Part shown: in pieces, positions 28,652 through 31,536 of the stretch
How the letters are laid out: every line of letters begins with the position of its first letter
Position numbering within the stretch: position 1 is the first letter of the stretch
Source of the DNA: Polynucleobacter sp. UK-Mo-2m-Kol15
GTDB lineage: Bacteria; Pseudomonadota; Gammaproteobacteria; Burkholderiales; Burkholderiaceae
Assembly: GCF_018881505.1 (NCBI RefSeq)
Contig: NZ_JACVQC010000001.1
Span: 1,037,927-1,101,926, forward strand
Direction of reading: 5' to 3'
Length of the DNA stretch: 64,000 nt
Notes under the pieces: model-generated
Database searches by the model: none
What the model was told of the DNA's origin: nothing
What the model saw: only the letters and a program-made list of their open reading frames with translations
Translations under genes and position numbers: made by a program

Positions 28652-30238
28652 ATGATGAGTAAAAGTAATAGACCAACTCAGGAATTTTTAGAATCTAGTC
28701 GTCGCCTATGGTTAAAGCGGGTAGGTTCTGTGGCATCTATTATTGCATTTCCAGCTATGGTGAAAGAGGCTCTGGCCGAAGCACCCTCAACCCTGAACGC
28801 GATACCACGAATTGCCCTGGTAATTGGAAACGCTAAATATAGAGATGCTCCCCTCAAGAACCCTATTAACGATGCACAATCTATCTCTAATGAGTTACAG
28901 AAGGTTGGATTCAAGGTCACTATGCAATTAGATGCTGGCCGCGTTACCCTTGTTGATGCAATAGAAAAATTTAGTGCTGAGCTAGCCAAGAGCAGAGGTG
29001 TGGGTATGTTTTATTATGCTGGCCATGGCGCTCAGCTTGGGTGGAGGAATTATTTGATTCCAGTTGACGCAGAAATTGATAAATTAGAAGACATGAAAAC
29101 CAAAACAGTTGATTTATCAAGTCTGTTGGGAGGAATTTCAAAAGCAGCTAACCCTATGAATGTAATTATTCTGGACGCTTGTCGTGATAATCCATTTGGA
29201 ACGAGGGTGCCTACTGAGCAAAAAGGCCTCTCTCAATTTGATGCGCCCCCAGGATCGCTGATCGCTTACGCCACTGCTCCGGGAAATACTGCAGCAGATG
29301 GCAATGGCAGCAACGGTCTATTCACCGAAAACTTATTGCGGGAAATTCGAGTTCCAGATGCCAAGATTGAGGATGTATTAAAGCGCGTTCGTTTAGGTGT
29401 TCGGCGCTCATCTCAGGGCGCACAAATTCCATGGGAAACAACCTCTTTAGAAGAAGATTTTTATTTCCTGCCTCCCGCTTCCATTAAGAAAAAATCTGAA
29501 GCAGAGTTGGACAGGCAGTATACAGAGCAAAAGAAGGAGTGGGACAAGTTAAAGGATAGTAAGAATGTTGATGATTTTTATGCTTTTTTAAATAAGTACC
29601 CGAGTGGCTTCATAACAGAGCAGGCAACATATCAAATTGAACAACTACAAAAAGCAAAGATTTCATTGCAGGCTGGCAAAAATGCTGTTGCTCAAAAATA
29701 TGGAGAAAAGCGTTTTCGCGTCGGCGATACTTTTATAGGCCGCACAACTGATGGGTTGACCGGCAAATTAATCTCGGAGACCTTCAATAAGGTTGAAAAA
29801 ATTGAGAACGGCTTGGTTTACATTAACAATAAAAGCAAAGATGGAAAGTATGTAATCAGAACGATAGATGGCGGCTTAGTTCGTACCGGGGGTGTCCAGG
29901 GCCCTGTCATATTTGATCCGCCAAGAACAGATATGCCTGGAGATATCTTGGAGGTGGGGAAGCGTTGGACTAGTAGAAATACGGTTACCTTGGAAACAAG
30001 CAAAGAATCTTTTGATGAGCAGGTATCAATTGGAATTGTTGCTTATGAAGAGGTCGAGGTGCCGTTTGGCCGCTTTTGGGCATACAAGTTTGAAGTAAAA
30101 CGACGCGGTTTTACGAGAACCTTTTGGGCTGAGCCTGGCTGGGGAATTGAGCTCAAGTCGATCACAACCAACACAAATAGAGGGTACAAAACAATTTGGG
30201 AGCTGGTTTCTCGTACTCGGGGCAAAGATATTAGCTAA
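28652..30238 (+). CDS. Caspase-family (peptidase C14, metacaspase-like) protein with Tat-like leader
   Basis: A 528-residue protein. The leader has SRRLWLK at residues 16-22, close to the twin-arginine consensus, then a hydrophobic stretch (VGSVASIIAFPAMV) and a likely cut after ALAEA, so export to the periplasm is inferred. Residues 53-275 form a caspase domain: RIALVIGNAKY, catalytic His125 in YYAGHG, and catalytic Cys177 in ILDACRDNPF. A charged helical linker with the repeat-like piece FYAFLNKYPSG follows. The C-terminal domain of about 180 residues (from RFRVGDTFIGRTTDG) is unrecognised and beta-rich. It is the first gene of a three-gene unit; the next gene begins 69 bases on. Confidence 0.85.
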   Translation: MMSKSNRPTQEFLESSRRLWLKRVGSVASIIAFPAMVKEALAEAPSTLNAIPRIALVIGNAKYRDAPLKNPINDAQSISNELQKVGFKVTMQLDAGRVTLVDAIEKFSAELAKSRGVGMFYYAGHGAQLGWRNYLIPVDAEIDKLEDMKTKTVDLSSLLGGISKAANPMNVIILDACRDNPFGTRVPTEQKGLSQFDAPPGSLIAYATAPGNTAADGNGSNGLFTENLLREIRVPDAKIEDVLKRVRLGVRRSSQGAQIPWETTSLEEDFYFLPPASIKKKSEAELDRQYTEQKKEWDKLKDSKNVDDFYAFLNKYPSGFITEQATYQIEQLQKAKISLQAGKNAVAQKYGEKRFRVGDTFIGRTTDGLTGKLISETFNKVEKIENGLVYINNKSKDGKYVIRTIDGGLVRTGGVQGPVIFDPPRTDMPGDILEVGKRWTSRNTVTLETSKESFDEQVSIGIVAYEEVEVPFGRFWAYKFEVKRRGFTRTFWAEPGWGIELKSITTNTNRGYKTIWELVSRTRGKDIS

Positions 30239-30307
30239 TCGCATTTTAATTAGTTGCTTTATTATTTGATCAGATTATGTTTTATCAATTTTAAAAAAGG
30301 CGGGGTT

Positions 30308-30748
30308 ATGGGCACTTTTAATAACATTTTGAAATTTTCAGCGCTATGTTTGATTTATCAAGGCAGTTTATCTGCTGCCCCATTAATTACCGCCAAGGAA
30401 GCTGCATTGCCACCAGCAACAAAAGTGGTAACTCGTGGTATTTCGAGAGGCCCATCGATTAAATTTATTGCCCCAATTTCAGACTCGACCGTTAATTCTC
30501 CATTTGATTTCAAGGTAGCATTTGAGCCGCGCGGCGACTCTAAAGTCGATATAAATTCGGTAAAAGTTACCTATTTAAAGTTCCCATATGTTGATCTCAC
30601 CCCAAGGCTTAAGTCGGCAATCTCTGCGAGCGGAATCAATTTTCAAAATGCTGAAGTGCCCGCAGGCGAACATTCTGTAAGACTCACCGTTCAAGATACT
30701 GATGGTCGAGAAACAAACTCAGTGTTCAATCTAATTGTGGCTAAGTAA
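30308..30748 (+). CDS. Small exported protein of unknown function, Ig-like C-terminal region
   Basis: A 146-residue protein not assigned to a named family. It has a probable signal peptide (ILKFSALCLIYQGSLSAA), a short linker (ITAKEAALPPATK), and then about 95 residues with alternating beta pattern (PSIKFIAPISDSTVNSPFDF, later AGEHSVRLTVQDTDGRETNS) that resemble a bacterial Ig-like fold. The ATG at 30308 is preceded by GGCGGGG; an in-frame TTG at 30254 is less likely. Its stop overlaps the next start (TAATG), and it follows the caspase-like gene. It may be an accessory or partner of that protease, which is an inference from position only. Confidence 0.6.
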   Translation: MGTFNNILKFSALCLIYQGSLSAAPLITAKEAALPPATKVVTRGISRGPSIKFIAPISDSTVNSPFDFKVAFEPRGDSKVDINSVKVTYLKFPYVDLTPRLKSAISASGINFQNAEVPAGEHSVRLTVQDTDGRETNSVFNLIVAK

Positions 30749-31536
30749 TGAATTGCCCATATTGCCTGTCTGATGTAAATGAAGAGGCATTAGTTTGCAG
30801 AACATGTTCTCGCGATCTGTATCTTTTTAAGCCAATGATGACAAAAGTAGCCGACTTAGAGAGGCGACTAGAGGAGATTCCGAATTCAGAGGCATATGAA
30901 AAGCGTATTGCTGAACTGGAAGCAGTATTAGATGAGCAAGAGCAAGGCCAGCTAAAGCCCAGATCCGCTTGGAAGGAATTGCGTGACATCGTTGTCTATT
31001 TATTAGTTCCGCTGATACTTCTTTTGCTGGCGCATGCATTAATTACTATCGTGTATGACACAAGCATGGTTTATCTAAGACTTATCTCTATGGCAATACC
31101 ATTGCCATTTGGATACTTCTTATTTAAAGGGCATCAACATAAACTCTTTCCGTGGTTTATAGGCGTTATCTTTTTAGCAATATCTTCAGTGATTGGAATG
31201 AGTTGGATCACTAGTCTTGTAGATGGTTCATCGGTTTGGCCGCGAAGTACTGTTGAATGGCGTGAAGTATTGGAATATGCCGCGAGCATTTCATTTAGCT
31301 TTCTAACGGGAATGCTTTTGGGTGGAGTTGCATTTGCCAATAAACGGCGTCATCGACGTTCCGCATTAATTAATCCAATGCTAAGGGCGGCGGCAACTGG
31401 GCTGGGTGAGGGTAAGCTGTCCCCAGGCAATTTGTACATCTTAATGAAAAACATACAAGAGTATGGCGCAACAGTCATTGCTCTTGGAACAACAGCGCTG
31501 TCTATATATACGGGCCTCAAGGGAATAATAAGCTGA
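30748..31536 (+). CDS. Zinc-ribbon, coiled-coil, multi-pass membrane protein of unknown function
   Basis: A 262-residue protein. The N-terminus has two CxxC knuckles (MNCPYCLSDVNEEALVCRTC), a zinc ribbon. A charged coiled coil follows (about residues 28-72, LERRLEEIPNSEAYEKRIAEL), then four or five membrane segments (about 77-100, 108-125, 132-150, 170-195, and perhaps 236-258). A positively charged loop NKRRHRRSA lies before the last. The ribbon and coil are probably cytoplasmic. It is coupled to the small exported protein upstream, so the operon links a periplasmic protease to a membrane protein with a cytosolic sensor-like domain. Function unknown. Confidence 0.65.
   Translation: MNCPYCLSDVNEEALVCRTCSRDLYLFKPMMTKVADLERRLEEIPNSEAYEKRIAELEAVLDEQEQGQLKPRSAWKELRDIVVYLLVPLILLLLAHALITIVYDTSMVYLRLISMAIPLPFGYFLFKGHQHKLFPWFIGVIFLAISSVIGMSWITSLVDGSSVWPRSTVEWREVLEYAASISFSFLTGMLLGGVAFANKRRHRRSALINPMLRAAATGLGEGKLSPGNLYILMKNIQEYGATVIALGTTALSIYTGLKGIIS

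Follow-up and report, generated by a model that had tools for sequence, protein, structure and literature searches.

We analysed a window of 64,000 nucleotides from the freshwater bacterium Polynucleobacter sp. UK-Mo-2m-Kol15, by which we mean the whole stretch of DNA at its full length; the host genome comprises 2.18 Mb in 10 contigs. The forward strand of the window carries three open reading frames (ORFs), here called genes A, B and C, at positions 28652–31536 (Table 1). An earlier note on this DNA had described them as a metacaspase operon that could connect a periplasmic protease to a cytosolic sensor. That interpretation was partly supported, being right in outline but too narrow. We found good support for a different division of the locus, in which the fixed part is the pair B–C and the protease slot beside it is filled by exported caspase-fold (clan CD) cysteine proteases of several families. 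A–B–C is almost certainly the local version of a cell-envelope module that is widespread and consists of B–C and a plug-in caspase-fold protease. Throughout, L numbers denote loci or fetched stretches and G numbers denote genomes (L092 corresponds to G222).

Table 1. Positions in the window of the three genes and of their predicted parts (aa, amino acids; dN/dS, ratio of non-synonymous to synonymous substitution rates; Ig, immunoglobulin).
Feature	Positions	Strand	Basis
Gene A: predicted exported C14 (caspase/paracaspase-like) protease, 528 aa	28652..30238	+	PF00656, MALT1 match, invariant dyad
Predicted twin-arginine type leader of A (SRRLWLK ... ALA)	28652..28783	+	RRxxLK in window copy and 6/6 relatives with intact N-terminus; TatC in genome
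Caspase domain of A, aa 51–275	28802..29476	+	Pfam, MALT1 sequence and fold match, dN/dS 0.019 against L092
Helical stretch of A, aa 283–344, weakly CpoB/TPR-like	29498..29683	+	Helices in model; CpoB match
Beta-rich C-terminal domain of A, aa 346–528, related to DUF3108-like domains	29687..30235	+	PF11306 matches in relatives
Gene B: predicted exported Ig-like protein, 146 aa	30308..30748	+	AlphaFold2 model, Ig-like matches, B in flanks of C at 78/80 loci
Conserved N-terminal tail of mature B, aa 24–49, ending R43-G-I-S-R47-G-P49; candidate protease site	30377..30454	+	Motif and dN/dS
Ig-like domain of B, aa 50–146	30455..30745	+	AlphaFold2 model, fold matches
Gene C: predicted zinc-ribbon, coiled-coil, four-helix inner-membrane protein, 262 aa	30748..31536	+	23-row alignment
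Zinc ribbon of C (CPYC ... CRTC)	30748..30819	+	Four Cys invariant in 23 rows; some weak Pfam zinc-ribbon matches
Membrane region of C, segments aa 81–99, 108–126, 133–151, 178–196	30988..31335	+	Hydropathy maxima
Predicted periplasmic loop of C, aa 152–177	31201..31278	+	D159, P165 conserved; E170-x-[RK]-E173 stretch; topology inferred

All three genes are real coding sequence under purifying selection, with dN/dS values of 0.07 for gene A against L092, 0.13 for gene B and 0.09 for gene C against L107; these values are rough, with synonymous sites near saturation for gene A and saturated for gene C. For gene B the ORF list gave a TTG start at 30254, and the ATG at 30308 was the best fit to relatives. 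The stop of gene B and the start of gene C overlap as TAATG, base 30748 being common to both, whereas a gap of 69 nt separates the end of gene A from gene B, so the strict coupling read into the operon earlier holds for B–C only. The guanine plus cytosine content was 0.41 across 28–32 kb against 0.44–0.45 in flanking 2-kb blocks, a dip that says little because some blocks at 44–64 kb are equally low. Promoter and terminator scans returned fewer sites than in shuffles.

Gene A matched Peptidase_C14 (PF00656) over aa 53–271 with an E value of 4.9e-39 (134.8 bits against a Pfam cut-off of 21.4), and its dyad H125/C177, which the earlier note had read as intact, was invariant in a 19-row caspase alignment; the score above the cut-off and the His–Cys dyad place A in peptidase family C14. 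The nearest solved structure by sequence was the MALT1 paracaspase (E 5.1e-16), which was also the nearest fold to the AlphaFold2 model of A (Z 26.4, root-mean-square deviation (rmsd) 2.0, 200 residues aligned; predicted local distance difference test (pLDDT) of the whole model 68.6). The acidic residues D74, D175 and D216 of A were invariant in the same 19 aligned caspases and aligned with D365, D462 and E500 of MALT1 (MALT1 numbering by our own count from the catalytic pair), which presumably form its acidic, Arg-binding S1 pocket. Since these S1-type residues lie opposite those of MALT1, A is predicted to cleave after Arg or Lys and probably does so. The motif around the catalytic Cys is DACR, and Pfam found only the C14 domain, with no separate p10 test made. 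These features suggest that A is of a p20-only, DACR, MALT1-like kind rather than the classical metacaspase of the earlier label. Definitions that set paracaspases and orthocaspases against metacaspases are given in PMC5756287, which, in the part used here, warns that DxCR fails to separate these groups in bacteria.

The Tat-like leader SRRLWLK (Tat, twin-arginine translocation) noticed in the first reading was borne out by its relatives. The RRxxLK motif is kept in the window copy and in all six same-clade relatives with an intact start (L092, L093, L096, L097, L099 and L100; L098 was left out of the count, its start being lost at a contig end), and TatC is present in the window's own genome. 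Peak 12-residue hydropathy near the start was 1.3–2.0 in these seven A-type caspases, compared with 2.2–3.1 in 16 other full caspases, although in L092 and L096 the maximum falls after the leader core. By these sequence criteria (a conserved RR leader, a weakly hydrophobic start and TatC) A is a predicted Tat substrate and its leader a predicted Tat leader.

The C-terminal region of A had been called unrecognised, which still describes the window copy but not the wider set: DUF3108 (PF11306) matched three of eight A-type C-terminal regions (best E 4e-6), the window copy not among them. The window region shares 86% identity with that of L092 and 19–26% with the remaining six of the eight rows, and a profile of the eight regions matched CpoB at E 0.0081. 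The whole-A fold search tells little about this domain, where model confidence is low in places. In L093, L096 and L097 the domain is a separate leaderless gene that overlaps or abuts the caspase gene directly after it. This separate, leaderless state suggests that the C-terminal domain attaches to the caspase and that the two could pass through Tat together.

The AlphaFold2 model of B is an Ig-like beta sandwich (pLDDT 84.3). Its best structure matches had Z scores of 8.7 and 8.5, the latter to residues 936–1051 of latent PorU (rmsd 2.9, 98 residues), although Z scores near 8 may mean a common arrangement only. The structure model and fold matches together give B an Ig-like fold, as the exported Ig-like protein of the first reading should have; sequence models for B were weak, with PKD at E 0.039, He_PIG in one of 28 B members, and no Pfam or NCBIfam model matching more than one of the 28, all of these weakly. 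B carries a predicted signal peptide for export by Sec, cut, as judged by eye, before aa 24. A tail of the pattern R-[GAS]-[GILV]-x-R-G-[PL] (RGxxRGP) precedes the Ig domain in all 98 distinct B proteins encoded next to C; the pattern was widened once, its first version covering 89 of the 98. Nine of 13 distinct B proteins that are not next to C lack the motif (L154–L157, L203–L205 and second copies in L197 and L299), and the four that have it (L092, L153, L194 and L196) come from genomes that hold C elsewhere. The tail and the Ig domain are under about equal constraint (dN/dS 0.08 over 26 codons and 0.09 over 97 codons).

According to the part of PMC9612521 drawn on here, the cut in bacterial gasdermins follows Leu or Arg, and the one gasdermin tested requires Gly next to it. 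A passage of PMC9729208 describes the TPR-CHAT protease Csx29 with its adjacent substrate gene Csx30 and notes that CHAT substrates tend to be neighbours. Because of these precedents the RGISRGP tail of B is a candidate that could be cut, by analogy.

The earlier view of C as a membrane protein with a zinc ribbon and a coiled coil agrees with the wide 23-row alignment. Residues C3, C6, C17, C20, H96, D104, R111, D159 and P165 were invariant, E170 and E173 of the loop were present in at least 90% of rows, and a coiled-coil-like stretch accompanies the four Cys of the ribbon and the four hydropathy segments. The charges predict a topology in which the N-terminus with its zinc ribbon and the basic tail KRRHRR lie inside and the D159–P165 loop lies outside. 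No Pfam or NCBIfam model matched more than four of 23 C members, and those that did so were short zinc-ribbon models with weak scores.

Within the genus, C was found in 56 of 186 genomes, B in 59, CHAT proteases in 54 and C14 proteases in 34. B was present in 55 of the 56 genomes with C, the exception (G094) being decayed, and occurred without C in four genomes (G232, G252, G287 and G291). A caspase-fold protease lay within 5 kb of C at 51 of the 56 loci, against 0.41 expected by random placement; it was TPR-CHAT at 42 loci and C14 at nine. Three of the five remaining loci lie at contig ends (G103, G314 and G337), one is decayed (G094) and one is a true exception (G279). The co-occurrence that the earlier note had proposed as a check was thus seen in other genomes. 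Left out of the 56-locus count were one of the two rows of a broken C gene in G216, weak CHAT rows in G285 and G338 (on a C14 domain) and an 88-residue C14 fragment in G359. CHAT or C14 occurred in 54 of the 56 genomes having C and in 18 of the 130 without it, a contrast for which a p-value is meaningless because the genomes are related. One chromosomal site, marked by three conserved neighbour families, holds 32 of the 55 mapped C loci; the other 23 do not show the site marker genes, some through a short contig. The window's own genome gave 0 CHAT matches and so does not qualify as TPR-CHAT (Craspase-like). We rejected the idea that A is obligatory with B–C, since TPR-CHAT takes the C14 slot in most genus genomes having C. 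The proposed link of three families therefore stands for an exported caspase-fold protease with B and C, and falls for the C14 caspase as an obligatory member.

A tree of 64 C proteins, of which 59 could be labelled by neighbour (45 CHAT, 14 C14), was built by a quick method and has some long branches. On this tree the protease label changes seven times, at least six of them on well-supported branches. Six changes remained without L111, whose label is doubtful, and also when broken, edge or long-branch rows were dropped too. Well-supported pairs of C proteins with different proteases include L096/L146 and L100/L138. The CHAT proteases keep their H903/C954 dyad in all 84 rows, from 63 distinct stretches.

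The linkage was repeated in other families of the order and in Alphaproteobacteria. Order-wide, the C profile matched in 14 of 399 genomes, two of them falsely (L206 and L207), and B was found in 13 of 300; both counts include the window's own genome. Fifteen of 17 stretches fetched from other genera of the order had a true B or C, and CHAT or a caspase lay near 14 of these; the fifteenth, L201, had no protease nearby and is close to a contig end. Scanning 84,980 species genomes with one peptide pattern, so that the count is a lower bound, gave 81 relatives of C, of which 80 were kept. They came from Polynucleobacter, Curvibacter, Hylemonella, Azospira, Oryzomicrobium, Accumulibacter, Sulfuritalea, Comamonas, Afipia, Bradyrhizobium and others. 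B was found in the flanks of 78 of the 80 C loci and CHAT or C14 in those of 69. About half of the 80 loci belong to genomes already counted; of the 39 in neither earlier set, 33 have the protease. Contig ends cut five of the 11 protease-less loci (L238, L248, L258, L286 and L303). On a Variovorax plasmid the B–C–CHAT set is present with CHAT on the other strand, and the genes are annotated as a CHAT domain-containing protein, a hypothetical protein and a zinc ribbon domain-containing protein. Among the ORFs of the subset of loci in the tail-motif scan, no fused B–protease, C–protease or B–C protein with both profiles was found.

Cell death and defence are roles often considered for prokaryotic caspase homologues, many of which have no known substrate or regulator. 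Two previously unrecognised families, B and C, define a module where proteases of two Pfam families with one fold, C14 and CHAT, take each other's place in a single envelope slot. The module supplies candidates for a substrate or regulator (B), for a cut site and for a receiver in the membrane (C), and these data point to a previously undescribed proteolytic module of the bacterial envelope. From the computed module, protease-family exchange, export-type N-termini, intact dyads, tail and topology signals, we infer cutting of B, contact between B and C, and signalling. In such a scheme, A would fold in the cytosol, be exported by Tat and mature in the periplasm. There the protease would recognise the linear RGISRGP of Sec-exported B and probably cut after Arg and before Gly; cut or uncut B would then act on the conserved periplasmic loop of C, and C would change state, a change passed on to the zinc ribbon and coiled coil on its cytosolic side. 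A path from a periplasmic protease to a cytosolic sensor, as first suggested, may exist in that the topology allows it. The specific route, with the protease acting on B and C relaying the result across the inner membrane, is quite possible, and we put it forward tentatively. The broader proposal makes B–C the centre of a so far undescribed system for transmembrane signalling in Beta- and Alphaproteobacteria, in which Tat- or Sec-delivered proteases cut an Ig-like ligand at RGxxRGP and C reports the cut to the cytosol; we regard it as rather unlikely in this full form. If true, bacteria would have an extracytoplasmic equivalent of caspase signalling, built around a plug-in protease.

Several observations weigh against the module and its proposed working. 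At L111 the C14 gene lies three genes away from C, which is why its label is doubtful. The link is one-sided: B or C is found within 5 kb of 44 of the 64 CHAT hits and 16 of the 47 C14 hits in the genus, but not of the other 20 and 31. The C loci are not independent, because 32 of 55 share one chromosomal site. L092 has an A–B pair without an adjoining C and with no clear remnant of one, in a genome that has another B–C–CHAT locus; its flanks are as in the window, with a beta-lactamase-like gene upstream and a cupin gene downstream. Six loci (L251, L265, L277, L278, L279 and L292) have B–C and at least 5 kb upstream without CHAT or C14 by profile, although L251 and G279 are one and the same and the downstream flank of L265 is only 1.5 kb long. 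Reading the neighbours at B–C loci without CHAT or C14 by eye, we recognised no third protease family, and Pfam searches of four neighbours at such loci gave no match for L278, L292 and L265 and TPR only for L277. CHAT specificity varies: as part of PMC9729208 reports, Csx29 has Lys in place of the Asp that reads P1 Arg in separase, and Csx30 is cut after Leu. Finally, the tail motif marks a B sub-family and may bind C rather than be cut.

The main rival is that B–C anchors exported caspase-fold proteases to the membrane and acts as their chaperone, with C in the inner membrane, B bridging or inhibiting the protease and other envelope proteins as the substrates. It would accommodate the different caspase-fold proteases that occupy the slot, and a role in the envelope is suggested by OmpA-family genes, which occur in several cassettes. 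Ig domains also accompany clan CD proteases, in MALT1 chains with Ig3 and in PorU, which we take to be a clan CD protease and whose residues 936–1051 are those matched by B; in MALT1, Ig domains regulate or inhibit the protease. We nevertheless consider this rival doubtful, as anchoring alone does not explain the conserved, predicted cytosolic zinc ribbon of C or the RGxxRGP tail, and B–C loci without a detected protease exist.

Gasdermin systems offer another model, in which a triggered protease would cut B or C and C would permeabilise the membrane in cell death or defence. Those systems are cytosolic, whereas the protease and B bear export signals here. The invariant charged residues of C, a membrane protein, would suit a permeabilising role, and the PADLOC model 'caspase' matches A at E 3.4e-11; a defence-system annotation of A was rejected, PADLOC giving this generic match alone, as was a phage origin, A having no match among phage records. 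For B and C of the window, the sole PADLOC match was a weak one between C and LmuB (E 0.0055), and no gasdermin model was reported for B or C in Pfam, NCBIfam or PADLOC searches. As far as the cited part of PMC9612521 goes, bacterial gasdermins adjoin caspase-like proteases counted as C14 and CHAT, so that their operons resemble the present loci in having a fixed partner gene beside such proteases; their cut at Arg or Leu, with Gly next to it in the one tested, also resembles the candidate site of B. The loci differ in the export leaders of protease and B and in a partner that is a gene pair. With 32 of 55 C loci at one site between housekeeping-like genes, unlike a defence island, the export signals and common site make a death effector less likely, and we judge this explanation improbable.

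A housekeeping role in the envelope, for example quality control of the cell wall or of lipoproteins, in which C is only a structural partner and the caspases degrade damaged exported proteins, has a similarly low probability. OmpA-family proteins next to CASP2 in several loci, the DUF3108-like relatives of the A C-terminal region and the alpha/beta hydrolases with export-like starts that follow C in some genomes (clusters c15 and c21, c15 being below the Pfam cut-off) would fit it; the patchy distribution in 56 of 186 genus genomes and the inconstant neighbours would not. Chance neighbourhood or shared history only is very improbable, since even with many loci syntenic a protease was seen at 51 of 56 loci against 0.41 expected, and the linkage recurs outside the main site, in other families and in Alphaproteobacteria, with six to seven protease switches.

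We also compared the A–B–C set with other known systems. Craspase (type III-E CRISPR: Cas7-11, Csx29 and Csx30) is alike in having a TPR-CHAT protease with an adjacent substrate gene, as the cited part of PMC9729208 describes; it is RNA-activated, the window genome lacks CHAT, and no search for CRISPR genes was made in the loci. MALT1 is alike in being the best sequence and fold match of A, in its DxCR motif and in its Ig-like and coiled-coil partners. Its Ig domains are fused, so that for B and C the likeness is one of analogy, not homology, and Pfam matched neither a death domain nor Bcl10 in any of the three proteins; the complex of CARD-coiled coil, Bcl10 and MALT1 is treated in PMC5978004. 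Exported prokaryotic metacaspases and orthocaspases, already known as a general kind, share an N-terminal export-like helix before the caspase domain, and the section of PMC3501461 used here lists 46 sequences with a lone caspase domain after a single N-terminal helix, possibly a signal peptide; by term counts, the words Tat, CHAT, periplasm and Burkholder do not occur in its main text. In the EACC1- and EACC2-type caspase conflict systems the caspase is likewise a constant component of a multi-gene system (parts of PMC8195603 and PMC7159879). A reached 43.6 bits with the NCBIfam EACC1-type model (NF047832), whose cut-off is 140, and falls outside that type; no Pfam or NCBIfam NTPase model matched in A, B or C. 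As the earlier note had supposed, no named system or paper on the A–B–C set or the B–C pair was found in the literature searched, which mostly excluded subscription papers and preprints.

Some individual loci depart from the common arrangement. The CHAT gene is broken with B and C open in L119 (G230) and L132 (G231), and both CHAT and C are broken in L095 (G094). L151 (G216) has two TPR-CHAT genes in tandem before B, with C in two pieces. The cassettes of L197–L200, L202 and L274 hold two caspases and an OmpA-family gene (by Pfam for L274). In L278 and L292 (Rhodocyclaceae, Sulfuritalea) the gene directly upstream encodes a protein of some 278 aa that starts like an exported protein and has no Pfam match; it could be another kind of partner. 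Nine Afipia loci (L285, L287–L291, L293, L295 and L306) have an extra gene of about 71–74 aa between B and C that matches the zinc ribbon of C. L206 and L207 were rejected as relatives of C and left out of the counts, having the zinc ribbon alone in common and another layout; in L206, a 16-kb stretch of G386, this zinc-ribbon protein lies about 2 kb from a CHAT gene. Other CHAT proteases belong to a different, repeated cassette in L210–L216, where neither B nor C was detected; CHAT is followed there by genes for a protein of roughly 250 aa and for larger proteins, and a very large gene precedes it in places.

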